In this document: one piece after another, positions 11,871-58,189 of the stretch
Layout: every line of letters starts with the position of its first letter
Position numbering within the stretch: the first letter of the stretch is position 1
NCBI RefSeq assembly: GCF_010994095.1
Contig: NZ_WJYO01000001.1
Coordinates: 992,001-1,056,000 of the forward strand
DNA from: Mumia xiangluensis
Lineage (GTDB): Bacteria > Actinomycetota > Actinomycetes > Propionibacteriales > Nocardioidaceae
Direction: 5' to 3'
DNA: 64,000 bases
Made by a program: the position numbers and the translations under genes
Notes under the pieces: model-generated
What the model saw: only the letters and a program-made list of their open reading frames with translations
Told to the model about the DNA's origin: nothing
Database searches by the model: none

Positions 11871-11892
11871 TGCCTTCTCGCCTCGCCCCGCC

Positions 11893-12047
11893 CGCTGGTT
11901 GGGGCTTGCTTCCTCCCGATGGTTGGGGCTTGCTTCCTCCCGCTGGTTGGGGCTTGCTTCCTCCCGCTGGTTGGAGCGCTCCTCCTCCCGCTGGTTGGAG
12001 CGCTCCTCCTCCCGCTGGTTGAGCGAGCGTAGCGAGTCGAAACCCCA
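11893..12047 (+). repeat. Six-copy array of the GGTTGAGCG 3'-end repeat
   Basis: Six copies start at 11893, 11917, 11941, 11965, 11989 and 12013 with an exact 24-base period. Each begins CGCTGGTTG (one has CGATGGTTG). The first three continue GGGCTTGCTTCC, the next two GAGCGCTCCTCC, and only the last has the full form ending AGCGAGTCGAAACC. The array lies between the peptidase stop (11870) and the convergent PPOX gene. The rest of the 255-base gap shows no gene. Confidence 0.92.
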
Positions 12048-16718: not shown

Positions 16719-16760
16719 CCTGTATCGACATGTGTCAACATAGACGTATGTCGATACAGG
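16719..16760. promoter_or_regulatory. Perfect 13-base inverted repeat over the acr3 start, candidate ArsR operator
   Basis: CCTGTATCGACAT (16719-16731) and ATGTCGATACAGG (16748-16760) are exact inverted copies 16 bases apart. The right arm contains the acr3 ATG. ArsR-family repressors bind such AT-centred inverted repeats. There is no ribosome binding site before the ATG, which suggests a leaderless transcript whose start lies inside the operator. Confidence 0.72.
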
Positions 16761-17845
16761 CTCCCGTGCGCCTCTCCACGCTCGACCGCTGGCTCCCGCT
16801 GTGGATCGGTCTGGCCATGGCTGCGGGTCTCGTGCTCGGCCGCTTCGTCCCCGGCCTCTCCGACGCCCTCGCGATGCTCGAGGTCGGCGGCATCTCCGTG
16901 CCGATCGCCCTCGGCCTGCTCGTGATGATGTACCCGGTGCTCGCCAAGGTCCGCTACGACCGGGTCGCCGCCGTGACGGGCGACAAGCGACTCCTCGTCA
17001 GCTCGCTCGTCCTCAACTGGCTCCTCGGCCCGGCTCTGATGTTCGCGCTGGCGTGGGTCTTCCTCGCCGACCTCCCGGAGTACCGCACCGGCCTCATCAT
17101 CGTCGGACTCGCTCGTTGCATCGCCATGGTCGTCATCTGGAACGACCTCGCTTGCGGCGACCGGGAAGCCGCGGCGGTCCTGGTCGCGATCAACTCGGTC
17201 TTCCAGGTCGTCGCCTTCTCGCTCCTCGGCTGGTTCTACCTGACGGTCCTTCCCGAGTGGCTCGGCCTCGACACGCAAGGCCTCGAGGTCTCTGCCGGAC
17301 AGATCGCGCTCAACGTGCTCGTCTTCCTCGGCGTCCCCCTCGCGGCCGGCTTCGCGTCGCGCTGGATCGCGGAGCGTCGCCGCGGCCGGGACTGGTACGA
17401 GGCGCACTTCCTCCCACGGGTCGGCCCCTGGGCGCTGTACGGCCTCCTCTTCACGATCGTTCTGCTCTTCGCGCTGCAGGGCGAAGCGGTCACGTCGCAC
17501 CCGTGGGACGTCGTCCGGATCGCCCTCCCGCTGCTCGTCTACTTCGCCGTGATGTGGGGCGCCGGCATGGTGACCGGCAAGGCGTACGGCATGGGCTACC
17601 CGCGGTCGGCCACGCTTGCGTTCACGGCAGCGGGCAACAACTTCGAGCTCGCGATCGCGGTCGCGATCGGCACGTTCGGTGCGACCTCGGGTCAGGCGCT
17701 CGCGGGCGTGGTCGGCCCGCTGATCGAGGTGCCGGTCCTGGTCGGCCTCGTGTACGTGTCGCTGTGGCTCGCACGCCGGTGGTTCGGTGTCGACCCGTAC
17801 GGCGCTGCGACCGCCGCGCAGTCGCGTGAGGAGGTGCCCCGATGA
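16748..17845 (+). CDS. acr3: Arsenite efflux permease, Acr3 type
   Basis: The 365-residue transporter with ten membrane spans has the Acr3 hallmarks: Cys124 in GLARCIAMVVIWNDLACGD, the residue needed for As(III) transport, and Glu300 in AGNNFELAIAV. It exports arsenite at the cell membrane. The ATG at 16748 (MSIQAPV) is preferred to an ATG at 16730; neither has a ribosome binding site and the start lies within an operator. It overlaps the downstream ArsR-ArsC fusion by four bases, so efflux, sensing and arsenate reduction are co-expressed. Confidence 0.95.
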   Translation: MSIQAPVRLSTLDRWLPLWIGLAMAAGLVLGRFVPGLSDALAMLEVGGISVPIALGLLVMMYPVLAKVRYDRVAAVTGDKRLLVSSLVLNWLLGPALMFALAWVFLADLPEYRTGLIIVGLARCIAMVVIWNDLACGDREAAAVLVAINSVFQVVAFSLLGWFYLTVLPEWLGLDTQGLEVSAGQIALNVLVFLGVPLAAGFASRWIAERRRGRDWYEAHFLPRVGPWALYGLLFTIVLLFALQGEAVTSHPWDVVRIALPLLVYFAVMWGAGMVTGKAYGMGYPRSATLAFTAAGNNFELAIAVAIGTFGATSGQALAGVVGPLIEVPVLVGLVYVSLWLARRWFGVDPYGAATAAQSREEVPR

Positions 17846-19248
17846 CGCTGGACTGCACTCCGGCGAGCGCCGCGCACGCGATCGGCGAGGGCGTCGCCGT
17901 CTCCCTCGCCGGCACGCTCAAGGCGCTCGCAGATCCGCTGCGGCTGCGGATGCTGTCGGCGATCGCTGCCAGCCCGACCGGCGAGTCGTGCGTCTGCGAC
18001 CTCGCGGAGCTGGCCGACGTCTCGCAGCCGACCGTGTCCCACCACCTCAAGGTCCTCAAGGACGTCGGCGTGCTCGTCTCAGAACGCCGCGGGACCTGGG
18101 TCTGGTACCGCGTGGCCGACGCGTTCAAACCAGCCGTCGCGACGCTGCTCGACTCGTTCGCTCCCGCGGCGCTGGACCACCGGCTCGACGCGCGTGGGCG
18201 CACCGGACTGGCCGACGCGGATGCCGCGCTCGCGCACCTCGCCGACGACCTCGCGGCGGCGTACGGGTCGACGAGTCCGGCGCTGGTCCTCGCGACGGTG
18301 CGCGAGTCGTACACGGCGCTCGCCCGTGCCGCGTCCGTCACCCCGCACCTGATCGCGCTGACCGAGCGCTTCGCCCGCCAGCGTCTCGACGACCTCCAGC
18401 CCGACCGTACGGGCGCGCCGCCGCAGGTGCTCTTCGTCTGCGTCGCGAACGCGGGACGGTCGCAGCTCGCCGCAGCACTCGTGAACCACTACGCGGGCCC
18501 GCAGGTCGTCGTACGCTCTGCCGGTTCGGCGCCTGCCGCCGACCTGCACGCCGGGGTCGGCGAGATGATCGTGGCCCTCGCGCCCGACTCGGCGCCGGCG
18601 TTCCCCAAACCGCTGACCGACGACGCCGTGCGCGCCGCCGACGTCGTCGTGACCATGGGTTGCGGCGATGTCTGCCCGGTCATCCCCGGAGTCCGGTACG
18701 AGGACTGGCCCGTCGGCGATCCCGCGCTCGCCTCACCCGAAGGCCTGAATGCGATCCGCGCCGAGATCGACCGTCGTGTCCGCGCCCTGCTGGCCGACCT
18801 CGTCCCCGACCTGACGCTTTCCCCCGTCCGAAGGAGAGCCTCGATGACCGTGTCCCGCCCCCAGGTCCTGTTCGTCTGCGTACACAACGCCGGTCGGTCC
18901 CAGATGGCTGCCGGCTTCCTCGGAGCCCTCGCCGGTGACGCGGTCGTCGTACGCTCGGCCGGCTCGATGCCCGCCGAGCAGATCAACCCGGTGGCCGTCG
19001 AGGCCATGGCCGAGGTCGGCATCGACATCCGCGCCGAGGTCCCCAAGCTCCTGACGGCCGAGTCGGTCCAGGAGTCGGACGCCGTCATCACGATGGGCTG
19101 CGGTGACGCGTGCCCGTACTTCCCGGGGAAGCGCTACGAAGACTGGAAGCTCGACGACCCCGCTGGGCGGGGCATCGACGCCGTGCGTCCGATCCGCGAC
19201 GAGATCCGCGCCCGCGTCGTCACCCTGCTGGACGAGCTGGGGGTCTGA
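17842..19248 (+). CDS. ArsR / three-helix / ArsC / ArsC multi-domain fusion
   Basis: A 468-residue frame with four parts. Residues 15-110 are an ArsR helix-turn-helix with the As(III) site ESCVCDL (Cys50, Cys52). Residues 125-190 are a helical bundle typical of actinobacterial phosphatase-like ArsC proteins. Residues 195-325 are a low-molecular-weight phosphatase/ArsC domain with CVANAGR (Cys200, Arg206) and cysteines 274 and 278. Residues 339-468 are a second ArsC with CVHNAGR (Cys346, Arg352) and cysteines 420 and 424. A good ribosome binding site (GAAGGAGA) precedes an in-frame ATG at 18844, so a separate 134-residue ArsC may also be made. The protein should repress the operon and reduce arsenate to arsenite for Acr3. 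Confidence 0.9.
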   Translation: MTLDCTPASAAHAIGEGVAVSLAGTLKALADPLRLRMLSAIAASPTGESCVCDLAELADVSQPTVSHHLKVLKDVGVLVSERRGTWVWYRVADAFKPAVATLLDSFAPAALDHRLDARGRTGLADADAALAHLADDLAAAYGSTSPALVLATVRESYTALARAASVTPHLIALTERFARQRLDDLQPDRTGAPPQVLFVCVANAGRSQLAAALVNHYAGPQVVVRSAGSAPAADLHAGVGEMIVALAPDSAPAFPKPLTDDAVRAADVVVTMGCGDVCPVIPGVRYEDWPVGDPALASPEGLNAIRAEIDRRVRALLADLVPDLTLSPVRRRASMTVSRPQVLFVCVHNAGRSQMAAGFLGALAGDAVVVRSAGSMPAEQINPVAVEAMAEVGIDIRAEVPKLLTAESVQESDAVITMGCGDACPYFPGKRYEDWKLDDPAGRGIDAVRPIRDEIRARVVTLLDELGV

Positions 19249-19259
19249 GCGGCCGTTGG

Positions 19260-19955
19260 TCAGCGCTCGCCGCAGCAGCCGTCGGTGCATGCTGTGGACG
19301 TGTCTCCGGTGAGGGCGCCGACGGGGCTGCAGCAGACTTCGCCGCGCCATGCTTCGCGGCCCTCGCGGACGGCGAACCCGGCGATCACGAGTGCAGCGAT
19401 CGGATCCGCCCAGGACCAGCCCAGGGTGCTGTTGAGGAGCAGGCCGACGAGCAGCACGGCGGACAGGTAGGAGCAGATGAGCGTCTGCTTCGAGTCGGCG
19501 ACTGCAGACGCCGAACCGAGCTCGCGTCCTGTTCGGCGCTCGATCCAGGACAGCAGCGGCATCACGGCGAGACTGACGGCGGCGAGGGCGATGCCGACGG
19601 AGGAGTGGTCCGGCTCGGAGGCTCCCGCGAGCGCTCGGATGGCGTCAGCGCTGACGAAGACAGCGAGACCGAAGAACGAGAGCGCGATCAGCCGCATGGC
19701 GACCCGCTCGCGCGAGTGCGGGTCGGGTGCGGCGAACTGCCAGGCGACGGCCGCCGCCGACAGGACCTCGACGAGCGAGTCGAGGCCGAATCCGACCAGG
19801 GCCGACGACGAGGCGATGCGTCCGGCTGTCAGCGCGATGACGGCCTCGACAAGGTTGTAGACGATGGTCGTGGCGACGATCCACCGGATGCGCCGCTGAA
19901 GTCGGGTCCGGCGCTCCGCGGTCAAAGGTGGTCGGCCGATCGAGATCGACGTCAT
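19260..19955 (-). CDS. Cation diffusion facilitator-like transporter with Cys-rich tail
   Basis: The 231-residue protein has about six membrane spans and the CDF-type second-span segment VGFGLDSLVEVLSA. It is shorter than classical CDF proteins and lacks their large cytoplasmic domain; instead it ends in a Cys-rich tail (EVCCSPVG, ACTDGCCGER). Efflux of a soft metal or metalloid is plausible. It starts at ATG 19955, overlapping the upstream ArsR/CmtR-like gene by four bases, and is convergent with the ArsR-ArsC fusion (11-base gap). Confidence 0.85.
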   Translation of the reverse strand: MTSISIGRPPLTAERRTRLQRRIRWIVATTIVYNLVEAVIALTAGRIASSSALVGFGLDSLVEVLSAAAVAWQFAAPDPHSRERVAMRLIALSFFGLAVFVSADAIRALAGASEPDHSSVGIALAAVSLAVMPLLSWIERRTGRELGSASAVADSKQTLICSYLSAVLLVGLLLNSTLGWSWADPIAALVIAGFAVREGREAWRGEVCCSPVGALTGDTSTACTDGCCGER

Positions 19956-20209
19956 GAGCAGCCGCACTCCTCGCCTGCGCAACAGTCGGGATCGACGAGG
20001 AGGACGACGCGAAGAAGCTCGCTCAACGCGGGCGCGAGGTGCGGGTCGGCCAACCGGTACGAGGTCCGACGTCCCTCTGGGACGGCCTCGACCAGGCCGC
20101 ACCCGCGCAGGCAGGCCAGCTGGTTCGACATCACCTTTCGCGACACGCCGAGCGCGTCCGCGAGGTCGGAGGGGAACGCGGGAGCCTCACGACGGGCGCT
20201 CAGCTGCAC
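19952..20209 (-). CDS. ArsR/CmtR-like metal repressor, 5'-truncated
   Basis: The frame encodes the winged-helix half of a CmtR-like repressor (FPSDLADALGVSRKVMSNQL, then ACLRGCGLVEAVPEGRRTSY) and a Cys-rich end (DPDCCAGEECGCS). Full relatives are about 110-120 residues and start some 30 residues earlier with a dimerisation helix and an LADPTR motif. Here the conserved sequence stops abruptly at about 20195, where the flavoprotein gene ends. A GTG at 20209 directly after GGAGG would give 85 residues. The gene may be a remnant or a truncated, translationally coupled regulator. It overlaps the CDF gene by four bases. Confidence 0.6.
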   Translation of the reverse strand: MQLSARREAPAFPSDLADALGVSRKVMSNQLACLRGCGLVEAVPEGRRTSYRLADPHLAPALSELLRVVLLVDPDCCAGEECGCS

Positions 20210-21621
20210 CCTCCGCCCGCGTCCCCCGAGCGGCCGTGCTCGACGCCGGTCGCGAAACCGACCCCGGCGGGTGCGGAGGTCAGTGTGAGAAGTGCGGGCT
20301 CTGCCGGCGTGCTGCCGCAGCACGCGGCGCCCGCCTGCTGGCCGTCGGCGTCCAGCGCTAGGTCGGACGAGCACACACCGGTCTCGGGAAGGTTCAGCTC
20401 GACGGTGTCGGCGGCCGTGCGGTCACCGGCCAGCGCGGCTGCGATCGAACGCACCTGCTCGTAGCCGGTCGCCATGAGGAACGTCGGCGCACGGCCGTAC
20501 GACTTCATGCCGACGATGTAGAAGCCGTCGTCGGGCTGTGCGAGGAGCTTCTCCCCGTGCGGCGGGACGGTGCCGCACGAGTGGAAGTTCGGGTCGATCA
20601 TCTCGGCGATCCCGGCAGGGCACTCGAGCGCCGGGTCGAGGTCGAGGCGGACCTCGCGGATCACGTCGAGGTCGGGGCGGAAGCCCGTCGCGTTCACGAT
20701 CGCGTCCACCGTGACGTCGAGGACGCCGTCACGTGACCGGCCGACGACCCGCACATCGTCCTCGCCAGCGTCGAGCCGGTCGATCTCGACGAACGTGAGG
20801 AGTCGCACGCGTCCCGCATCGACGGCTGCCTTCAGGCGTGTCCCCAGCAGGCCGCGAGCGGGCAGCTCGTCGTCTGCACCGCCGCCGTACAGGCGACGCG
20901 CCGAGCCGCCGCGGATCGCCCAGACGACCTCGGTGCCGGGCTCGTCCTCCGCGAGCTGAATGAGGCTGAGCAGCGTGTTCGCGGCCGAGTGTCCCATGCC
21001 GACGACGAGGGTGCGCCGGCCGGCGAACCGGACGCGGTCCTTCCCCTCGACATCGGGCAGGGGGCCGGTGACGTACGCCCGTGCATCCGCCTCGCCCAAG
21101 GCGGGGAGCCCGCCGACGCCGAGCGGGTTGGAGGTGCCGTAGGTGCCGGAGGCGTCGATGACCGCGCGTGCGAGCAGGTCCTCGACCGCGCCGTCCGGGC
21201 CGACGACGCGAACCCGGTAGCCCTTGCCTTCGCGGCCGATGGTCCGGGTCTTGTCGGCGGTGAGGCGGGAGACGCCGAGCACCCGCGTGCGGGTGTGGAT
21301 GCGCCCGCTCAGCTGGGGTGTGTCGGCGAGCGGGGTCAGGTAGTCGTCGACGAGCTCACCCCCGGTGGGCAGCGCGTCGAGGTCGGGCACCGACCAGCCG
21401 GCGGGCTCGAGCAGGCGCCGGGCAGCGGCGTCGATGTTGTAGCGCCATGGCGAGAAGATGCGGACGTGCCCCCACGACGCCACCGCTGCGCCGACCTGCT
21501 CGCCGGCCTCGAGGACCAGCGGGTCGAGCCCGCGCTCCAGCAGGTGTGCCGCCGCCGCCAGCCCGACTGGGCCCGCGCCGATGACGATGGTCGGGAGGCT
21601 GTCTCGTGCCGGGTCGCTCAT
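20200..21621 (-). CDS. FAD/NAD(P)-binding flavoprotein of the arsenic island (ArsO-like)
   Basis: The 473-residue protein has an N-terminal FAD loop (VIGAGPVGLAAAAHLLERG), a second nucleotide loop (VVGMGHSAANTLLS) and NATGFRPDLD, the layout of flavin-dependent monooxygenases/oxidoreductases. Similar proteins in arsenic operons are called ArsO; their reaction is not settled. The C-terminus is Cys-rich (ETGVCSSD, GAACCG, GGGCS). It is divergent from arsR (21706) and shares the operator at 21638-21687, so arsenite induction is likely. Its final ten bases overlap the truncated ArsR/CmtR-like gene. Confidence 0.85.
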   Translation of the reverse strand: MSDPARDSLPTIVIGAGPVGLAAAAHLLERGLDPLVLEAGEQVGAAVASWGHVRIFSPWRYNIDAAARRLLEPAGWSVPDLDALPTGGELVDDYLTPLADTPQLSGRIHTRTRVLGVSRLTADKTRTIGREGKGYRVRVVGPDGAVEDLLARAVIDASGTYGTSNPLGVGGLPALGEADARAYVTGPLPDVEGKDRVRFAGRRTLVVGMGHSAANTLLSLIQLAEDEPGTEVVWAIRGGSARRLYGGGADDELPARGLLGTRLKAAVDAGRVRLLTFVEIDRLDAGEDDVRVVGRSRDGVLDVTVDAIVNATGFRPDLDVIREVRLDLDPALECPAGIAEMIDPNFHSCGTVPPHGEKLLAQPDDGFYIVGMKSYGRAPTFLMATGYEQVRSIAAALAGDRTAADTVELNLPETGVCSSDLALDADGQQAGAACCGSTPAEPALLTLTSAPAGVGFATGVEHGRSGDAGGGCS

Positions 21622-21637
21622 GGGTCACTCCTAGGGG

Positions 21638-21687
21638 ATCGAAGAACGTCGATGTTTGCCGCCTCGAATATATCCACGTTCTTCGAT
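21638..21687. promoter_or_regulatory. 12-base inverted repeat between flavoprotein and arsR, candidate ArsR operator
   Basis: ATCGAAGAACGT (21638-21649) and ACGTTCTTCGAT (21676-21687) are exact inverted copies 26 bases apart, enclosing the AT-rich GAATATATCC. The site lies between divergent genes with starts at 21621 and 21706 and is the natural binding site for the adjacent ArsR. Confidence 0.72.
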
Positions 21688-21705
21688 GCGTGGCAAGATG
21701 GAGGT

Positions 21706-22071
21706 ATGAGCGCGACGATCCCTCTCGAGGTCATCCCCACCGCTGGTGCCTGCTGCGCCCCGCTGGTCGGGACGGCCGTCACCCCGGAGACGGCACGTGA
21801 CCTCGCCCGTCGCTTCAAGGCGCTCGCGGACCCGGCGCGGGTGCAGCTGCTCTCGATCGTGGCTGCGCACGAGGGTGGGGAAGCATGCGTGTGCGACCTG
21901 ACCGAGCCCGTCGGCCTCAGTCAGCCGACCGTGAGCCACCACCTCAAGATCCTCGTCGACGCCGGCCTCCTCAGTCGCGAGAAGCGCGGCGTCTGGGCGT
22001 ACTACTCGCTCGTGCCGGGTGCGCTCTCCGACCTCGGCGCCGCGCTCGACGAGACCGCTGGAGCGTCCTGA
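21706..22071 (+). CDS. arsR: ArsR-family arsenite-responsive repressor
   Basis: The 121-residue winged-helix protein has the As(III)-binding motif EACVCDL (Cys61, Cys63) and the recognition helix SQPTVSHHLKIL; an extra Cys pair (16-17) precedes the fold. Arsenite binding should release it from DNA. The ATG at 21706 follows GGAGG four bases upstream. It is divergent from the flavoprotein and probably controls both through the inverted repeat at 21638-21687. Its TGA abuts the stop of the convergent MFS gene (TGATCA at 22069-22074). Confidence 0.93.
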   Translation: MSATIPLEVIPTAGACCAPLVGTAVTPETARDLARRFKALADPARVQLLSIVAAHEGGEACVCDLTEPVGLSQPTVSHHLKILVDAGLLSREKRGVWAYYSLVPGALSDLGAALDETAGAS

Positions 22072-23286
22072 TCAGGGGAGGACCGGGCGTCGCGGCATGG
22101 TCAGTGGAGTGAGCAGCGTCGCCGCGACGGCCAGCCCGGCGAGGACGCCGAACGCCGCAGGGTAGCCACCCAGGTTCTCCGCGAGGACCGTCCCGAGCCA
22201 CGGCGAGAGCGCGACCGCGAACATCAGCGGTGCCGAGAGCAGCCCGTTGAGCGTGCCGTAGCGGTGCACGCCCCAGCGATCTGTCACGGCGGTCGCCTGG
22301 ATGAGTGTGCATGCGCCCCGAGCGGTTCCTGCGAGGAACGAGACGACGGCCAGGAGTGCGTACGGCCCGGGTACGACGGCGAGGAGCAGTGTCGTCGCTG
22401 CGACCGCGGCGACGACCAGCGTCGTACGGGTTCGCACGCTGGTCGCCGCCTCCAGGCGTCGGTAGCCCAGCCGGCCACAGACCTGGCCGACTCCGCCGAC
22501 ACCGAGGACGACCGCCGCAGACTCCGTGCTGAGGCCGCGTTCGAGCAGCATGGGCACGAGATTGATCACGCCGGCGTAGATCGCAGCCGCCGCCAGGCAG
22601 ATCGCCGCGGTCAGCGCGAGGAACGCGCCCGACCGCCACACCGGTGGTCCGTCCAGGCCAGCCGTGGGCTCCGCCCGGTGGTGGGGGCCTGGCCACGGAT
22701 GGCGCAGACCCCACCAGTGCATCGGCACGGTGATCAGGAGGATGGCGGCAAGGACGCCGTACGTGTCACGCCACCCCAGGGGGCCGAGCAGGACGGCGGT
22801 CAAGGGGGCGAAGACCGTGCTCGCCAGACCTGCGACCAGCGTCACCGCTGTGAGCGCCTTGACTCGGTCCGCCCCGCCCCAGTGGGTCAGTGCGGCGAAG
22901 GCCGGCGCGTACAGGGTCGCGGCGCAGGCGACGCCGACCATCAGCCACGCGGCGACGAACCACGCGAGGTTCTGCGTCGCCGCCATGCCTGCCACGGCGA
23001 CGACGGCCAGGCCGGACCCTGCCGTCATGACGCCGCGCGGCCCGTGAGCGTCGATCCAGCGACCGACACCGACCCCCGTCACGCCGGCCACCACCTGGCT
23101 CAGGGAGAACGCGGCGACGACCGCCCCCATCGGCCACCCTGTGTCGGCCACGAGGTCCGCCAGGACGACAGGAAAGGCGTAGTAGAGGACGCCCCAGCTC
23201 ACGATCTCGGTCGCGCACAGCACCGCCGTGACGCGTCGCAGCGCCGGTGTCGGCAGGACGCGTTCGTCGGTCGCGAGCTCCGCCAT
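22072..23286 (-). CDS. MFS transporter of the arsenic/metal island
   Basis: The 404-residue protein with about twelve membrane spans has an MFS fold and a typical loop-2/3 segment (GVGRWIDAHGPRGVM). The start at ATG 23286 has GGAGG upstream (GACGGAGGTCGA). Its position directly after arsR suggests metalloid or organoarsenical efflux, as for MFS proteins in other ars islands, but no substrate motif is visible. A 39-base perfect palindrome lies 66 bases upstream of its start and may regulate it or the divergent dehydrogenase. Confidence 0.82.
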   Translation of the reverse strand: MAELATDERVLPTPALRRVTAVLCATEIVSWGVLYYAFPVVLADLVADTGWPMGAVVAAFSLSQVVAGVTGVGVGRWIDAHGPRGVMTAGSGLAVVAVAGMAATQNLAWFVAAWLMVGVACAATLYAPAFAALTHWGGADRVKALTAVTLVAGLASTVFAPLTAVLLGPLGWRDTYGVLAAILLITVPMHWWGLRHPWPGPHHRAEPTAGLDGPPVWRSGAFLALTAAICLAAAAIYAGVINLVPMLLERGLSTESAAVVLGVGGVGQVCGRLGYRRLEAATSVRTRTTLVVAAVAATTLLLAVVPGPYALLAVVSFLAGTARGACTLIQATAVTDRWGVHRYGTLNGLLSAPLMFAVALSPWLGTVLAENLGGYPAAFGVLAGLAVAATLLTPLTMPRRPVLP

Positions 23287-23351
23287 TCGACCTCCGTCCA
23301 GTGCGGGAGCACGAGCATACATCGAAGGCTGTCGATGGCATGGAGAGACGT

Positions 23352-23390
23352 GCTTCCAGCAAATGGAACTGCGTTCCATTTGCTGGAAGC
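23352..23390. promoter_or_regulatory. Perfect 39-base palindrome between divergent genes
   Basis: GCTTCCAGCAAATGGAAC (23352-23369) and its exact reverse complement (23373-23390) are separated by TGC. The core AATGGAAC-TGC-GTTCCATT resembles operators of TetR- or IclR-type dimers. It lies between the MFS start (23286) and the hydroxyacyl-CoA dehydrogenase start (23471). Confidence 0.75.
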
Positions 23391-23470: not shown

Positions 23471-24316
23471 ATGGACAAGATCGGTGTGGTCGGCTGCGGC
23501 CTGATGGGTGCGGGCATCGTCGAGGTGTGCGCGCGATCGGGCGCACAGGTGATCGCGGTGGAGTCGTCGCCCGAGCGTGTCGAGGCCGGTCTGGCCCGGA
23601 TCACGAAGTCGCTCGAGCGCGCCGAGTCACGCGGCCGGATCGACAGCGCCGCCGCCGTCCTGGAGCGCATCGCCGTCGTCGAGGACATCAACGCGCTGCG
23701 TGACCGCGACCTCGTGATCGAGGCGATCGTCGAGGACGAGGCCACCAAGGTCGCCCTCTTCAAGCAGCTCGACGAGCTGGTCGAGTCGCCGGACGCGATC
23801 CTCGCCTCCAACACCTCGTCGATCCCGATCATGAAGCTCGCGGTCGTCACCAAGCGTCCTGACAAGGTCCTCGGGATCCACTTCTTCAACCCGGTGCCCG
23901 TCCTGTCCCTCGTCGAGCTGGTCCCGAGCCTGCTGACGAGCGAGAAGACCACGCTCGAAGCCCGCAGCTTCGTCGAGGGCGCGCTCGGCAAGCACGCGAT
24001 CCTCAGCCAGGACCGTGCCGGATTCGTCGTCAACGCGCTCCTGATCCCGTTCGTGCTGCAGGCGATCCGGATGCTCGAGTCGGGCTTCGCGACGGCCGAG
24101 GACATCGACGAGGGCCTGGTGCGCGGTGCCGCCCACCCGCAGGGCCCGCTCGCCCTGGCCGACCTCATCGGCCTCGACACGACGAAGGCCGTGGCCGAGT
24201 CGCTGTACGAGGAGTTCAAGGAGCAGCTGTACGCCCCGCCGCCGCTGCTCGCGCGCATGGTCGACGCGGGCCTGCTCGGGCGGAAGTCCGGTCGCGGGTT
24301 CTACACCTACGAGTAG
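23471..24316 (+). CDS. 3-hydroxybutyryl-CoA dehydrogenase
   Basis: The 281-residue protein has an N-terminal Rossmann domain (VVGCGLMGAGIVE) and the 3-hydroxyacyl-CoA dehydrogenase signature: Ser in SNTSSIPI, the catalytic His in GIHFFNPVP and Glu in LVELVPS, with Asn in VVNALLIPF. It oxidises (S)-3-hydroxyacyl-CoA to 3-ketoacyl-CoA with NAD(P). The start ATG follows GGGAGAACC. It stands alone downstream of a palindromic site, not in a beta-oxidation operon. A four-unit repeat array begins on the base after its TAG. Confidence 0.95.
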   Translation: MDKIGVVGCGLMGAGIVEVCARSGAQVIAVESSPERVEAGLARITKSLERAESRGRIDSAAAVLERIAVVEDINALRDRDLVIEAIVEDEATKVALFKQLDELVESPDAILASNTSSIPIMKLAVVTKRPDKVLGIHFFNPVPVLSLVELVPSLLTSEKTTLEARSFVEGALGKHAILSQDRAGFVVNALLIPFVLQAIRMLESGFATAEDIDEGLVRGAAHPQGPLALADLIGLDTTKAVAESLYEEFKEQLYAPPPLLARMVDAGLLGRKSGRGFYTYE

Positions 24317-24486
24317 AGGTCTCGATCACTTCGTGCCTCGACCAGCGGTGAGGTGGTAGAGGTCTCGATCACTTCGTGCCTCGACCAGCGTGAGGTGGTC
24401 GAGGTCTCGATCACTTCGTGCCTCGACCAGCGTTGAGGTGGTGGAGGTCTCGATCACTTCGTGCCTCGACCAGCGTTGAGGTGGTG
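24317..24486. repeat. Four-unit array of a 42-44 base repeat
   Basis: Four copies of a unit containing GGTCTCGATCACTTCGTGCC followed by TCGACCAGCG and TGAGGTGGT begin near 24318, 24361, 24404 and 24447. They fill the gap between the dehydrogenase stop and the stop of the convergent paralogue gene. There are no unique spacers, so this is not CRISPR. The CGACCAGCG end is shared with the repeat family at 54-56 kb. Confidence 0.92.
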
Positions 24487-51373: not shown

Positions 51374-52341
51374 AGCAGCCCCAGTGCTCGCAGGTCGGCG
51401 ACGGGTTCGGCGATGCTGCACGAGCCGAACGACGTGAACCAGCGGCGCGCCTCCGTCAGCGCGTCCGGGCCGACGGCGTGGACGTCCTCCACGAGCACGT
51501 CTACCGACCGCTCACCGAGGATCGTCGCGACCGTCCGCACGTCGGCTCCGTCCGCGCTCGCGCGGGTCGCCAGCAGCACGTTGAGGAATCCGTGGTGGAC
51601 GAGACCGTCGTCAGGGTCCTCGGCGCGTACGGCGTGGTGCAGGCCGGCAGTGCACTGGAACGCCACTCCCTGAGCGACGAGGCTCGTCACCGCCGTCGCG
51701 AGCTCGTGCGGCGTCGGGAACGCCTCGGGCGTCGGGCCGCCCGTACGGAGCTTGACCCGTACGCCGTGGGTGGACGCGGCGGCGACCGCGTCACGCCACG
51801 CGGTGTCGAGGTCCGCGCCGGCGAGGGGCAGCTCGAGCGCGATGGGTGTCGTATCCCCGATGCCCTTGCGCAGCGTGGCGACGGCCTCGTCCACGGCGTG
51901 TCGGGTGCCGACCGGGACCCGCGCCGCTACGGCAGTGAGCCTCAGGCTCGGTGTCGCCGCAACCTGCGGGCCAGCGGCCGCGAGCTCGTCGGGTGTCCCC
52001 ACCAGTGCGACGTCGAGCGCCTTGTCCGCTGGTTGAGCGTGCGCCCCGTCCGCTGGTTGAGCGTGCGCAGCGAGTCGAAACCCCTCCACCCCGTCCGCTG
52101 GTTGAGCGTGCGCCCCGTCCGCTGGTTGAGCGTGCGCCCCGTCCGCTGGTTGAGCGAGCGAAGCGAGTCGAAACCCCTCCACCCCGTCCGCCGGGAGCAC
52201 GAGTGGTCCCACGAGATCGGCCAGCGCCGACGCGCGGTGCTCCCGGTGCGACTGCACAGCGTCGGGTAGCGATGCATTGCCGGGCGGGAAGACGGCGGCA
52301 TCGTCCACCAGCGCGTGGAGCCACGGGGGAACGGTTGACAT
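51370..52341 (-). CDS. Conserved protein of the homogentisate locus with in-frame repeat insertion
   Basis: The 323-residue protein starts MSTVPPWLHALVDDAAVFPP, a form common beside fahA and hmgA in Actinobacteria; its function is not known. Between LVLPAD (residue about 52) and KALD (about 107) it contains 54 residues made of GVEGFRLASLAQPAD-, GAHAQPAD- and GVEGFRLAAHAQPAD-type units. These are translations of the interspersed repeat, in frame, so the ancestral protein was probably about 269 residues. It is divergent from hmgA and co-transcribed with fahA. Confidence 0.8.
   Translation of the reverse strand: MSTVPPWLHALVDDAAVFPPGNASLPDAVQSHREHRASALADLVGPLVLPADGVEGFRLASLAQPADGAHAQPADGAHAQPADGVEGFRLAAHAQPADGAHAQPADKALDVALVGTPDELAAAGPQVAATPSLRLTAVAARVPVGTRHAVDEAVATLRKGIGDTTPIALELPLAGADLDTAWRDAVAAASTHGVRVKLRTGGPTPEAFPTPHELATAVTSLVAQGVAFQCTAGLHHAVRAEDPDDGLVHHGFLNVLLATRASADGADVRTVATILGERSVDVLVEDVHAVGPDALTEARRWFTSFGSCSIAEPVADLRALGLL
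52027..52178 (+). repeat. Five-copy repeat array inside a coding region
   Basis: Five copies of CGCTGGTTGAGCG occur, two of which continue to GCGAGTCGAAACC. The array is on the plus strand while the host gene is on the minus strand. Its 162-base contribution is a multiple of three and adds no stop codon to the minus frame. Confidence 0.92.
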
Positions 52342-52416: not shown

Positions 52417-53628
52417 ATGACCTACTACCGTCAGGTCGGCAGGGTCCCCCGCCAGCGCCACACTCAGCTGCGCAACGATGACGGCGCGCTGCACTACGAG
52501 GAGCTGATGGGTGAGGAGGGGTTCTCGTCGGACTCGTCCCTGCTCTATCACCGCGGTGTTCCTCATGCGGTGAGCGCGAGCGAGGTCTGGGAGCTGCCCG
52601 ATCTGGCCACGACTGCGAACCATCCGCTGCGGCTGATCCATCTCACGCTGCACGACCTGTTCGACGAGACCGAGGCCAAGGCGCTCGATCCGGTCACCGG
52701 GCGGCGGCTCGTGCTGGGCAACGGCGACGTGCGGATCTCGTACGTGGTGGCTGGCGAGTCGTCGCCGTACTACCGCAACGCGGTCGGAGACGAGTGCGTG
52801 TTCGTCGAGGCGGGGACGGGCGTGGTCGAGACCGTGTTCGGTGTCGTGCCGTACCGGGCGGGTGACTACGTCCTGATCCCGCGGGCGACCACGCACCGAT
52901 GGGTGCCGGCTGAGCTCAGCCGTCTGTACGCGATCGAGGCCAACAGCCACATCGCGCCACCGAAACGCTATCTCTCGCGGTATGGGCAGCTGCTCGAGCA
53001 CGCCCCGTACTGTGAGCGCGACCTGCACGGACCCGAGGAACCGTTCGTCGTCGAGGGAACCGATGTCGAGGTGTTGGTGAAGCACCGTGGGCGGGGCCCG
53101 TCGGGGATCGTGGGGACGCGGCTGACGTACGCCACCCACCCGTTCGACGTGGTCGGCTGGGACGGGTGTCTGTATCCGTACACGTTCAACATCGAGGACT
53201 ACATGCCGATCACCGGCAAGGTCCACCAGCCGCCGCCGGTGCACCAGGTCTTCGAGGGCTACAACTTCGTGGTCTGCAACTTCCTGCCGCGCAAGGTCGA
53301 CTACCACCCGCTGTCGATCCCGGTGCCGTACTACCACTCCAATGTCGACTCCGACGAGGTGATGTTCTACGTCGGTGGGGACTACGAGGCGCGTAAGGGG
53401 ACGGGGATCGGTGTCGGCTCGATCTCGTTGCATCCGGGTGGGATCGCGCACGGTCCGCAGCCCGGCGCGGTCGAGGCGTCGATCGGTGTGCACGAGTTCG
53501 ACGAGGTCGCGGTCATGGTCGACACGTTCCGTCCGCTGGAGATCGGGGAGGCCGGAGCAGCGACCGACGACCACGTGTACGGCACCGCCGCCGCCCGAGC
53601 GCTCAGCGACCGCCCCTCCGCCGGTTGA
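52417..53628 (+). CDS. hmgA: Homogentisate 1,2-dioxygenase
   Basis: The 403-residue enzyme has the cupin-like C-terminal iron site PVHQVFEGYNFVVCNFLP, YYHSNVDSDEVMFYVGGDY and SLHPGGIAHGP. It opens homogentisate with O2 to maleylacetoacetate in tyrosine breakdown. The ATG at 52417 follows GAGGAGG. The last residues (DRPSAG) and the TGA at 53626-53628 are encoded by the first copy of an interspersed repeat, so the native C-terminus has been replaced or extended. Confidence 0.96.
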   Translation: MTYYRQVGRVPRQRHTQLRNDDGALHYEELMGEEGFSSDSSLLYHRGVPHAVSASEVWELPDLATTANHPLRLIHLTLHDLFDETEAKALDPVTGRRLVLGNGDVRISYVVAGESSPYYRNAVGDECVFVEAGTGVVETVFGVVPYRAGDYVLIPRATTHRWVPAELSRLYAIEANSHIAPPKRYLSRYGQLLEHAPYCERDLHGPEEPFVVEGTDVEVLVKHRGRGPSGIVGTRLTYATHPFDVVGWDGCLYPYTFNIEDYMPITGKVHQPPPVHQVFEGYNFVVCNFLPRKVDYHPLSIPVPYYHSNVDSDEVMFYVGGDYEARKGTGIGVGSISLHPGGIAHGPQPGAVEASIGVHEFDEVAVMVDTFRPLEIGEAGAATDDHVYGTAAARALSDRPSAG

Positions 53629-53810
53629 GCGCCCCCTCTCCCGCTGGTTGAGCGAGCTCCTTCCCGCTGGTTGAGCGAGCGAAGCGAGTCGAAACCCTCA
53701 CCCGTCGAGCGCCCCCTCTCCCGCTGGTTGAGCGAGCGAAGCGAGTCGAAACCCCCGCCGGTCGAGCGCCCCCTTCCCGCTGGTTGAGCGAGCGAAGCGA
53801 GTCGAAACCC
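53619..53810 (+). repeat. 3'-end repeat array after hmgA
   Basis: Several copies of C(C/T)GGTTGAGCG occur, at least three full-length with AGCGAAGCGAGTCGAAACC, separated by CCCGTCGAGCGCCCC-type spacers. They run in the same orientation as hmgA and provide its stop codon. The stop of the convergent GIY-YIG gene begins on the next base (53811). Confidence 0.93.
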
Positions 53811-54098
53811 TCACCCCGGCTCCACCCTGTGCTTCCCGAGCCCCTTGAGTCCCTCGAAGTCCCGCCGGATCAGGGCTTCACGCTTCACGCGTGACCACCC
53901 CTGGATTCGCTTCTCCCAGGCGTACGCCTCGGCGATCGAGTCGGTCTCCTCGAAGAAGACGAGCTCGACCGGGCGCCGAGTGCGCGTGTAGGTGGCGCCA
54001 GAGCCCGCATTGTGCTGGTCGACACGCGCTGCCAGGTTGCGGGTGCTGCCGACGTAGTAGCTCCCGTCGGCGCATCGAAGGATGTAGACCCATGCCAT
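53811..54098 (-). CDS. GIY-YIG endonuclease domain protein flanked by repeat arrays
   Basis: The 95-residue protein is a single GIY-YIG domain: WVYILRCADGSYYVGST (the two motif strands), Arg in RNLAARVDQHNAG, and Glu in EAYAWEKRIQGWSR, the metal-binding Glu. Relatives (UvrC-like, YhbQ type) may cut or process DNA, but cellular roles are unclear. The start is the ATG at 54098; the frame upstream (MSERSESKP) is translated repeat and is rejected. Arrays of the same repeat lie on both sides in opposite orientation. Confidence 0.88.
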   Translation of the reverse strand: MAWVYILRCADGSYYVGSTRNLAARVDQHNAGSGATYTRTRRPVELVFFEETDSIAEAYAWEKRIQGWSRVKREALIRRDFEGLKGLGKHRVEPG

Positions 54099-54145: not shown

Positions 54146-54304
54146 GGGGTTTCGACTCGCTTCGCTCGCTCAACCAGCGGACGAGGGGCGCTCGACCGGC
54201 GGGGTTTCGACTCGCTTCGCTCGCTCAACCAGCGGACGAGGGGCGCTCGACCAGCGGACGGCGGGGCGCTCAACCAGCGGACCTGCGCTCGCTCAACCAG
54301 CGGG
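54146..54304 (-). repeat. 3'-end repeat array between the MFS and GIY-YIG genes
   Basis: Full copies reading GGTTTCGACTCGCTTCGCTC then GCTCAACCAGCGG alternate with short CGCTC(A/G)ACCAGCGGAC units. The orientation matches the upstream MFS gene (minus strand), and the TGA of that gene (54293-54295) lies in the array. It is inverted relative to the array at 53619-53810. Confidence 0.93.
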
Positions 54305-55699
54305 AGGGAGCGGCGGGTCGACGAGCCGCGGCACCAGCGTCGCGCCGTACAGCGCCAGACCAACGGGCACGGCGAGGATCGTCGCCAACGCGGCCGCAGA
54401 TGCTGCCCCTGCCGCGAGGAGTGCACCGGCGAACGAGATGTAGAGCGACTGGGCAACCGTGGCGGAGAGCATCGCGGCTGCCGACATCCGTCCCTGGGTG
54501 TCCGGGGGCGTGAGCGTCAGCACGTGGTTGGCAAGCGTCGGGGACCCGATCCCCATTCCTGTCCCAGCGAGCGCCCACAGTGCGAGGCCGAGCCAGACCG
54601 GGACGGCGTCGAGAGCGACCAGTACGGGACCGGTGACCCCTGCGGCGATCAGGCAGAACGACACCCGCATCCGGCCCACGGTCGTGGTGCGGCGTTGGAC
54701 GGTCCCCGTCCCGTTGAGCTGTGACCCGGCTGCCCAGGACAGACCGGTGATCGTCAGGCTGGCGCCCGCGAGCGTCGCCCCGAGTCCGTGTGTCTGCGTC
54801 AGCATGAGAGGGATGAAGGCGCCGGCTCCCGCGAAGGCTGAGGCCTGCACGCCGCGGAGCGCGACGGTCGCCGGGACACCGGGCCGGAGCCGGAGCGTGC
54901 CACGCGGCAGCACCCGGCGCGCGCCGAGGGCAACCATCGGCGTACCGATCGCCAGGGCGAGAACTCCGGCGTACCGGAGGGTGTCGTCGGTCGCCGCCGG
55001 ACCCCCGAACGCCAGCGCACCGAGGCCGATCCCGATGAGCACCGCCGAGCCGATCGCCGCGCGGTCGGTCGCCGCGGCGTCCTGGACGTCCTGGGCGGAG
55101 GAGCGCAGGCGTCGCAACGACGGTGCGAGGCACAGCGCGGCCGGCGCCATCAGCACGACCGCCGCCGCGAAGACCGCACGCCAGCCCATGTGCTCGGCGA
55201 TCGCCCCCGCGACCGGCGGGCCGACGAGCGACGGAAGCACCCACGCCGTGGCGATGGCGCCGAACATCGCTGGGCGGAGCGCGGCGGGCAACATCCGCGC
55301 GACCATCACCGTGAGCGCGACGTCGAGGAGTGCCTCGGCGACGCCCGCGGCGAGCCGCCCCGCGATGAACACGCCGATCGTCGGTGCGGCCGCCATCGCG
55401 AGCTGCGAGACGGCGAACACACCCATGCCTGCCACGAGCGCGGGCGCCGGACCACGGCGGTCGCACCACTGTCCGGCCGCGACCATCGCGATCACCGAGG
55501 CAGCGAGGGGAGCCGCCGCTGCGGTCCCGAACAGGCCGAGGCCGTCGAGCCGCTCGGTGACAGTCGGGAGGATCGCGATCGTGGCCCGGTTCTCGAAGGC
55601 CCCGAGCGTGACGAGCGCGAGAGCGCCGATGACGAACGGGAGGTGGCGGGGGTCGCGGAGCCGAGCGGGCGCTGTCGGACGCGAGACGGAGAGGGTCAC
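54293..55699 (-). CDS. MFS drug/metabolite transporter
   Basis: The protein has about twelve to fourteen hydrophobic spans and an MFS start (FVIGALALVTLGAFENRATI, then the loop GQWCDRRGPAPALVAG). It is probably a proton-driven exporter. I place the start at GTG 55699 (468 residues) because a MerR-type palindrome covers the alternative GTG at 55726, and a TTGACT at 55731-55736 would put the transcript start near 55699. The last residues (PLPPAG) and the stop are encoded by a repeat copy. Confidence 0.82.
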   Translation of the reverse strand: MTLSVSRPTAPARLRDPRHLPFVIGALALVTLGAFENRATIAILPTVTERLDGLGLFGTAAAAPLAASVIAMVAAGQWCDRRGPAPALVAGMGVFAVSQLAMAAAPTIGVFIAGRLAAGVAEALLDVALTVMVARMLPAALRPAMFGAIATAWVLPSLVGPPVAGAIAEHMGWRAVFAAAVVLMAPAALCLAPSLRRLRSSAQDVQDAAATDRAAIGSAVLIGIGLGALAFGGPAATDDTLRYAGVLALAIGTPMVALGARRVLPRGTLRLRPGVPATVALRGVQASAFAGAGAFIPLMLTQTHGLGATLAGASLTITGLSWAAGSQLNGTGTVQRRTTTVGRMRVSFCLIAAGVTGPVLVALDAVPVWLGLALWALAGTGMGIGSPTLANHVLTLTPPDTQGRMSAAAMLSATVAQSLYISFAGALLAAGAASAAALATILAVPVGLALYGATLVPRLVDPPLPPAG

Positions 55700-55740: not shown

Positions 55741-55954
55741 GGGGTTTCGACTCGCTTCGCTCGCTCAACCAGCGGAGGGAGGGGGTCGCTCAACCAGCGG
55801 AGGGAGGGAGCTCGCTCAACCGGCGGAGGGGGGTTTCGACTCGCTTCGCTCGCTCAACCGGCGGAGGGAGGGAGCTCGCTCAACCGGCGGAGGTGGGGTT
55901 TCGACTCGCTTCGCTCGCTCAACCAGCGAGGGAGGGAGCTCGCTCAACCAGCGG
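55741..55954 (-). repeat. 3'-end repeat array after the formamidase gene
   Basis: Three long copies of GGTTTCGACTCGCTTCGCTC then GCTCAACC(A/G)GCG are interleaved with short AGCTCGCTCAACC-(A/G)GCGG units. The orientation follows the formamidase gene on the minus strand, whose TAG lies ten bases away (55964-55966). Confidence 0.93.
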
Positions 55955-55963
55955 GGGCGGGGG

Positions 55964-58189
<2,226 letters not shown>

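Follow-up and report, generated by a model that had tools for sequence, protein, structure and literature searches.

Proteins in which an ArsR repressor is joined to an arsenate reductase (ArsC) have been described in different actinobacterial genera. They make up clusters C4 and C7 in one study (PMC6514093) and are named for Microbacterium and others in a review (PMC6205960). These proteins combine ArsR with an LMWP-type ArsC in one chain and are described there with one ArsC; in relatives compared here they stand beside acr3 and a separate arsC. The same sources report ArsC units linked to other arsenic functions. An ACR3-ArsC fusion is found in mycobacteria (PMC6514093, PMC6205960) and recurs in two genera, and an aquaglyceroporin-ArsC fusion of an actinomycete was reported as functional (PMC6205960); both resemble the ArsR-ArsC type in joining ArsC to a further arsenic function and differ in the partner. 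The thioredoxin-dependent arsenate reductase Cg_ArsC1' of Corynebacterium glutamicum uses the catalytic residues C88, C162 and C166 (PMC6514093), and another paper lists an arsC1-acr3-arsR-arsC-arsC operon as separate genes (PMC8852316). A chain joining ArsR to two ArsC units was not found among the matches listed in a search of the open-licence PMC literature.

The window analysed here, a 64,000-nt stretch of Mumia xiangluensis DNA, contains an arsenic operon in which the arsC following such a fusion gene stands in the same frame, with no stop between the two. From ATG 17842 to TGA 19246-19248 the plus strand is a single uninterrupted frame of 468 codons, as seen in the open reading frame and its translation. 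The features of the locus are as follows:

16719-16760, no strand assigned: imperfect inverted repeat, likely ArsR operator; 18-nt arms at 16719-16736 and 16743-16760, 89% complementary, with 6 nt between them
16730-17845, plus strand: acr3, arsenite efflux permease; TIGR00832 426 bits (cut-off 282.8) and SBF
17842-19248, plus strand: open frame of ArsR, three-helix bundle, ArsC1 and ArsC2; frame, Pfam and NCBIfam
17842-18177, plus strand: ArsR domain, about residues 1-112; HTH_5 and NF033788 (88.5 bits, cut-off 55)
18217-18396, plus strand: three-helix-bundle dimerisation domain, residues 126-185; PF21234, NF046112 and the helices of the structural model
18424-18801, plus strand: ArsC1, residues 195-320, with C200, R206, C274 and C278; LMWPc and PDB 3t38 (E 3.6e-41)
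18802-18861, plus strand: junction and linker, residues 321-340, between the last helix of ArsC1 and the first strand of ArsC2, with the putative former end of arsRC
18830-18837, plus strand: Shine-Dalgarno sequence GAAGGAGA of arsC2; CGAAGGAG is likewise present in the congener G005
18844-19248, plus strand: arsC2, 134 residues, from an internal ATG, with C346, R352, C420 and C424; LMWPc and PDB 3t38 (E 1.3e-39)

Residues 1-333 of the frame make up an ordinary ArsR–three-helix-bundle–ArsC protein, and the last 134 residues a complete thioredoxin-type ArsC. Pfam recognised HTH_5 (ArsR) at residues 31-77 (6e-14), Phosphatase-like_N (PF21234) at residues 130-183 and LMWPc in two stretches, the better one at 342-463. 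The NCBIfam three-helix-bundle domain NF046112 was placed at residues 127-182, and the NCBIfam arsenate reductase models matched two stretches, both below the equivalog cut-offs. The bundle, with helices at 126-140, 146-163 and 170-185 in the AlphaFold model, precedes ArsC1 only; ArsC2 has no bundle of its own. The ArsR-ArsC part is of the published fusion type and not novel, and its helical bundle already has a name in both databases (PF21234/NF046112).

The PDB entry 3t38, which we take to be C. glutamicum ArsC1', aligned to residues 130-317 as a single stretch (E 7.4e-49). Its first active-site cysteine is at chain position 88, as in Cg_ArsC1', which supports this identity. The corynebacterial enzyme resembles the frame over residues 130-317 in having a three-helix bundle followed by an ArsC with catalytic cysteines spaced by 74 and 4 residues; unlike the frame, it has neither an ArsR domain nor a second ArsC. 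The spacing of 74 and 4 occurs in both units of the frame (C200/C274/C278 and C346/C420/C424), each with a CX5R motif.

Conservation was followed in 114 relatives aligned from 130 separate arsRC/arsC pairs, the 16 left out being those in which the first unit was better matched by the ArsC2 query or the start codon was unclear. C200, R206 and C274 of ArsC1 were present in 114/114 and C278 in 113/114, and in ArsC2 C346 and R352 were found in all 114 and C420 and C424 in 113. In the ArsR part of the alignment C5 was kept in 106 of the 114 relatives, and C50 and C52 in 112. These three residues are the probable As(III) ligands, a role that we presume from what is generally held about ArsR proteins. 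The N-terminal ArsR/SmtB winged helix, the LMWP-type ArsC in the chain and the layout common to the 114 aligned relatives are those of ArsRC proteins, whereas the end of the chain after one ArsC is lacking in the window frame, the sole such case among 131 pairs.

At the junction, ATG 18844-18846 of arsC2 shares the frame of arsRC and is preceded by the Shine-Dalgarno sequence given above. The initial annotation had described an ArsR-ArsC protein running stop-free into a second ArsC, a ribosome binding site at 18830-18837 followed by ATG 18844, and CX5R plus the later cysteine pair in both active sites. The frame is open over 468 codons as it had stated, GAAGGAGA is present and in the same frame as the start, and the alignment shows both ArsC units intact. 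In our judgement it would not be unlikely, given GC-rich DNA, for the 14 codons from residue 320 to ATG 18844 to stay free of stops. What is unusual about the junction, judging from the sequences compared, is the absence of the open frame from every relative. RNA folding of 18800-18890 gave a z of 0.09, with no special structure concealing or exposing the arsC2 start.

Relatives were collected in two ways. A first sample, consisting of the 80 best among at least 528 relatives confirmed in a species-genome scan together with G045, G005 and the window, gave 82 pairs that could be judged, 81 separate and one fused. Further loci came from whole-genome searches covering 1613 genomes (counted with repeats) and from three plasmid records. 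The loci were supplied by six of these searches, run at E limits from 1e-60 to 1e-95 and with at most the best 30 loci each; for most rows of four of the six at most the best four candidates per genome were scored. Pooling all loci gave at least 154 distinct pairs of neighbouring ArsC units separated by less than 300 nt, and in 131 of the 154 an ArsR domain stood in frame ahead of the first ArsC (74 from genome contigs, 56 from whole genomes, the window among them, and one from a plasmid). The 23 pairs with no ArsR domain ahead comprised 19 separate and four fused ones.

Among the matches listed, a stop split 130 of the 131 distinct arsRC/arsC pairs, and the window alone was open. This agrees with the two-gene ancestral state that had been proposed for the locus, and in relatives with a stop ahead of this point ATG 18844 corresponds to the start of a separate arsC2. 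The matches listed in the genome searches (E limits mostly 1e-60 to 1e-95) contained no other stop-free span of the whole query, and the ArsR-ArsC-ArsC architecture was thus seen in one lineage. The second gene of the 130 separate pairs was in the same frame as arsRC in 57 cases and in the other two frames in 43 and 30; an ATGA overlap was used by 15, and an eight-base overlap as in G005 by three. A Shine-Dalgarno match of at least 4 bases preceded the second start in 86/131 pairs, the window included, and was missing from 45. The named nearest matches of the frame were nearly all actinobacterial records. In the plasmids NZ_CP081863 (Cellulomonas) and NZ_CP072388 (Cellulosimicrobium), acr3, an ArsR-family gene and arsC are listed as separate genes.

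The closest comparison came from the genus itself. Six genomes were compared, the window genome included, and a match at E <= 1e-60 was obtained only in the window genome and in G005, whose arsRC and arsC2 are 77% and 82% identical to those of the window. In G005 arsC2 lies in a different frame from arsRC, and the arsRC stop overlaps the arsC2 start (ATGCCTGA), beginning five bases into arsC2. An alignment of the two junctions, one of four equally good ones, placed four one-base gaps inside about 25 bases of spacer; the flanking coding sequence shown was gap-free except for a two-base end effect. These data suggest that the fusion probably arose when the reading frame was shifted by a net one or two bases within the short spacer of an ordinary acr3-arsRC-arsC2 operon. 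The ancestral junction would have consisted of two overlapping genes, arsRC followed by arsC2, and the shift, in a direction that we infer from the comparison, would have brought them into a single frame. The initial annotation had assumed that an intervening stop was lost. The result is as it assumed, although a base substitution would be the less probable way of reaching it. A frame change is preferred over a point mutation of the stop because arsC2 of G005 is out of frame and its start overlaps the arsRC stop. The window frame one base away from that of arsRC also favours it: this frame ends at TGA 18845-18847 and would form an ATGA with the arsC2 start, the form of 15 of the separate pairs and of the acr3/arsRC boundary in the window, where the acr3 stop TGA (to 17845) overlaps ATG 17842 by 4 nt. 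On the other hand, 57 of the 130 separate pairs have arsRC and arsC2 in one frame, which leaves room for simple stop loss from another ancestral arrangement, and since the operon occurs in one congener only, direction and timing depend on a single close comparison and on distant ones.

The open frame could also have been produced by an assembly or base-calling indel. In that case the genome would really have separate arsRC and arsC2 genes overlapping as ATGA, and a one-base error in the spacer would make the frame look continuous. The ATGA junction of the neighbouring window frame, a form shared with 15 of the separate pairs, fits this reading too. Five consecutive C at 18821-18825 are a possible error site in the spacer, and the matches listed in the genome searches contained no other ArsR-ArsC-ArsC frame. 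The C run, however, is short, and the assembly is in nine contigs with a completeness of 98.64%. In a frameshift census of the window genome against G005 (400 kb vs 440 kb, with a codon-usage filter) frame changes were found in 5/145 G005 genes in window-genome DNA and in 5/150 genes in the reverse direction. As there is no excess, the assembly is not visibly indel-ridden. The census flagged 11/145 and 13/150 genes overall, 5 and 5 with a frame change and 6 and 8 with an internal stop only; these flags count real breaks and gene-model effects together, and the census does not clear the junction itself. On balance we regard an indel error as rather unlikely, and a true frame change in the spacer remains the preferred origin.

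Three other versions of the census were discarded: the two first attempts compared regions that were mostly non-corresponding, and without the codon-usage filter 35/201 and 47/200 genes were flagged, the result being swamped by shadow ORFs. A separate observation was made on a 323-aa ABC-ATPase of the window genome (L179, 16669-17637, minus strand), the first 95 residues of which match G005 DNA in another frame, possibly because of another change of frame or an effect of start-site choice.

That the frame encodes an established four-domain sensor-reductase-reductase protein maintained by selection is very improbable. The open frame, the two intact active sites and the suitable length of the linker would be compatible with it, and fusions between ArsC units recur in related clusters. 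At four loci of relatives with the same gene order (L117, L122, L126 and L127) the frame of ArsC2 continues into another ArsC-like domain, and these proteins come from three genera of one family. Two of them are:

L122, 633-1481, minus strand: tandem ArsC-ArsC frame, 282 aa
L117, 1051-1911, minus strand: tandem ArsC-ArsC frame, 286 aa

Their recurrence indicates that tandem ArsC proteins are tolerated. The tandem chains share with the window frame two LMWP-type ArsC units in one frame and differ from it in having no ArsR; the ArsC-ArsC fusion recurs, whereas the ArsR-ArsC-ArsC frame of the window does not. The window frame was the one fused case among 131 pairs and absent in the congener, and arsC2 has kept its Shine-Dalgarno sequence and start, as it would if free ArsC2 were still of use. 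The searches turned up no further case among the matches listed that would point to selection for a four-domain protein. The window frame is best described as a singleton variant of a known arsenic operon, probably the result of a small, isolated change of frame or of a slip in sequencing.

In the tandem proteins of L122 and L117 the second ArsC domain has CX5K instead of CX5R, and that of L122 is nearest to PDB 3rh0 (E 4.4e-39), presumably the mycothiol-linked ArsC2 of C. glutamicum. Because of this similarity and the CX5K motif, the tandem genomes may have joined a thioredoxin-type to a mycothiol-type ArsC, with two redox couplings per chain.

The product of the window frame was modelled with AlphaFold from an alignment of 22 rows (A2), which gave a mean pLDDT of 81.3 and a pTM of 0.42. 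Another alignment (A1) had been set aside for modelling; to judge from its invariant columns, the single ArsC of the ArsRC rows fell on the second ArsC of the query. The model contained two complete ArsC folds, the last helix of ArsC1 ending at residue 320 and the first strand of ArsC2 starting at 341, joined by a 20-residue linker (321-340) with pLDDT below 50 at 330-336. Given the low pTM, the relative placement of the domains is not predicted. An active full-length protein with a flexible linker is plausible on this model, because the catalytic cysteines are intact and the linker joins two complete ArsC folds. Free ArsC2 from ATG 18844 is likely to be made as well, because the internal start site has been kept. 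From the intact active sites together with the arsC2 start and Shine-Dalgarno sequence, a fusion plus a free ArsC would be expected, and the fusion protein could also be unstable or absent in the cell.

If the frame is real and translated, it may specify an As(III) sensor and two thioredoxin-type reductases in one polypeptide, with ATG 18844 giving free ArsC2; we put this forward as a tentative possibility, more doubtful than the spacer origin of the fusion. In the working model of the operon, which goes with the spacer origin of the fusion, the ArsR end would, as a dimer, occupy the inverted repeat at the acr3 start and repress the operon, and As(III) bound at C5, C50 and C52 would free the ArsR end from the DNA. 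Both ArsC units would reduce As(V) to As(III) by a three-cysteine relay, presumably fed by thioredoxin, and the As(III) would be exported by Acr3. Ribosomes passing the arsRC part would run on into ArsC2 and produce the predicted 468-residue protein, while initiation at ATG 18844 would still yield the predicted free ArsC2.

A real frame would be a gene fusion near its birth, with the old start untouched and a congener in the two-gene state. One small frame change would have made a regulator with two tethered reductases plus a short isoform, and the locus would be a test of how well a repressor copes with a further enzyme, of 134 residues, at its C-terminus. An indel error, in turn, would urge caution with fusions called in GC-rich draft genomes.

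The inverted repeat that lies across the beginning of acr3 is the presumed ArsR operator. As it covers the listed start of acr3, the real start may be ATG 16748. A similar repeat was recognised by eye at the same place at acr3 in G005 (L148, 7650-7689). A strict repeat pattern matched 3/111 upstream regions of relatives and missed the G005 repeat, so a wider conservation is not demonstrated. Between 16400 and 19600 a scan detected no terminator-like site; it detected one promoter-like site, on the minus strand.

Downstream of arsC2 a CDF cation transporter (19260-20102, minus strand) precedes the next gene. The block of G005, collinear in other respects, lacks this transporter, and the counterparts of window blocks 16719-19245 and 20197-23338 stand 50 nt apart there (window gap 19246-20196). 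A CmtR-like regulator frame (19955-20374, minus strand) overlaps the transporter. The rest of the arsenic island consists of an ArsO-like flavoprotein (20203-21621, minus strand), a second ArsR (21730-22068, plus strand), which scored over the general NF033788 cut-off, and an ArsK-like MFS exporter (22075-23379, minus strand); the ArsO, Rv2640c and ArsK models scored below their equivalog cut-offs on the island genes. Directly beside the end (24314) of the block shared with G005, a 43-nt unit is repeated four times at 24316-24486. Arrays of units of about 23-93 nt were also found at 11891-12021, 52017-52191, 53605-53816, 54146-54315 and 55759-55965; the unit arrays share a core like CCGCTGGTTG or its complement and form a scattered repeat family.
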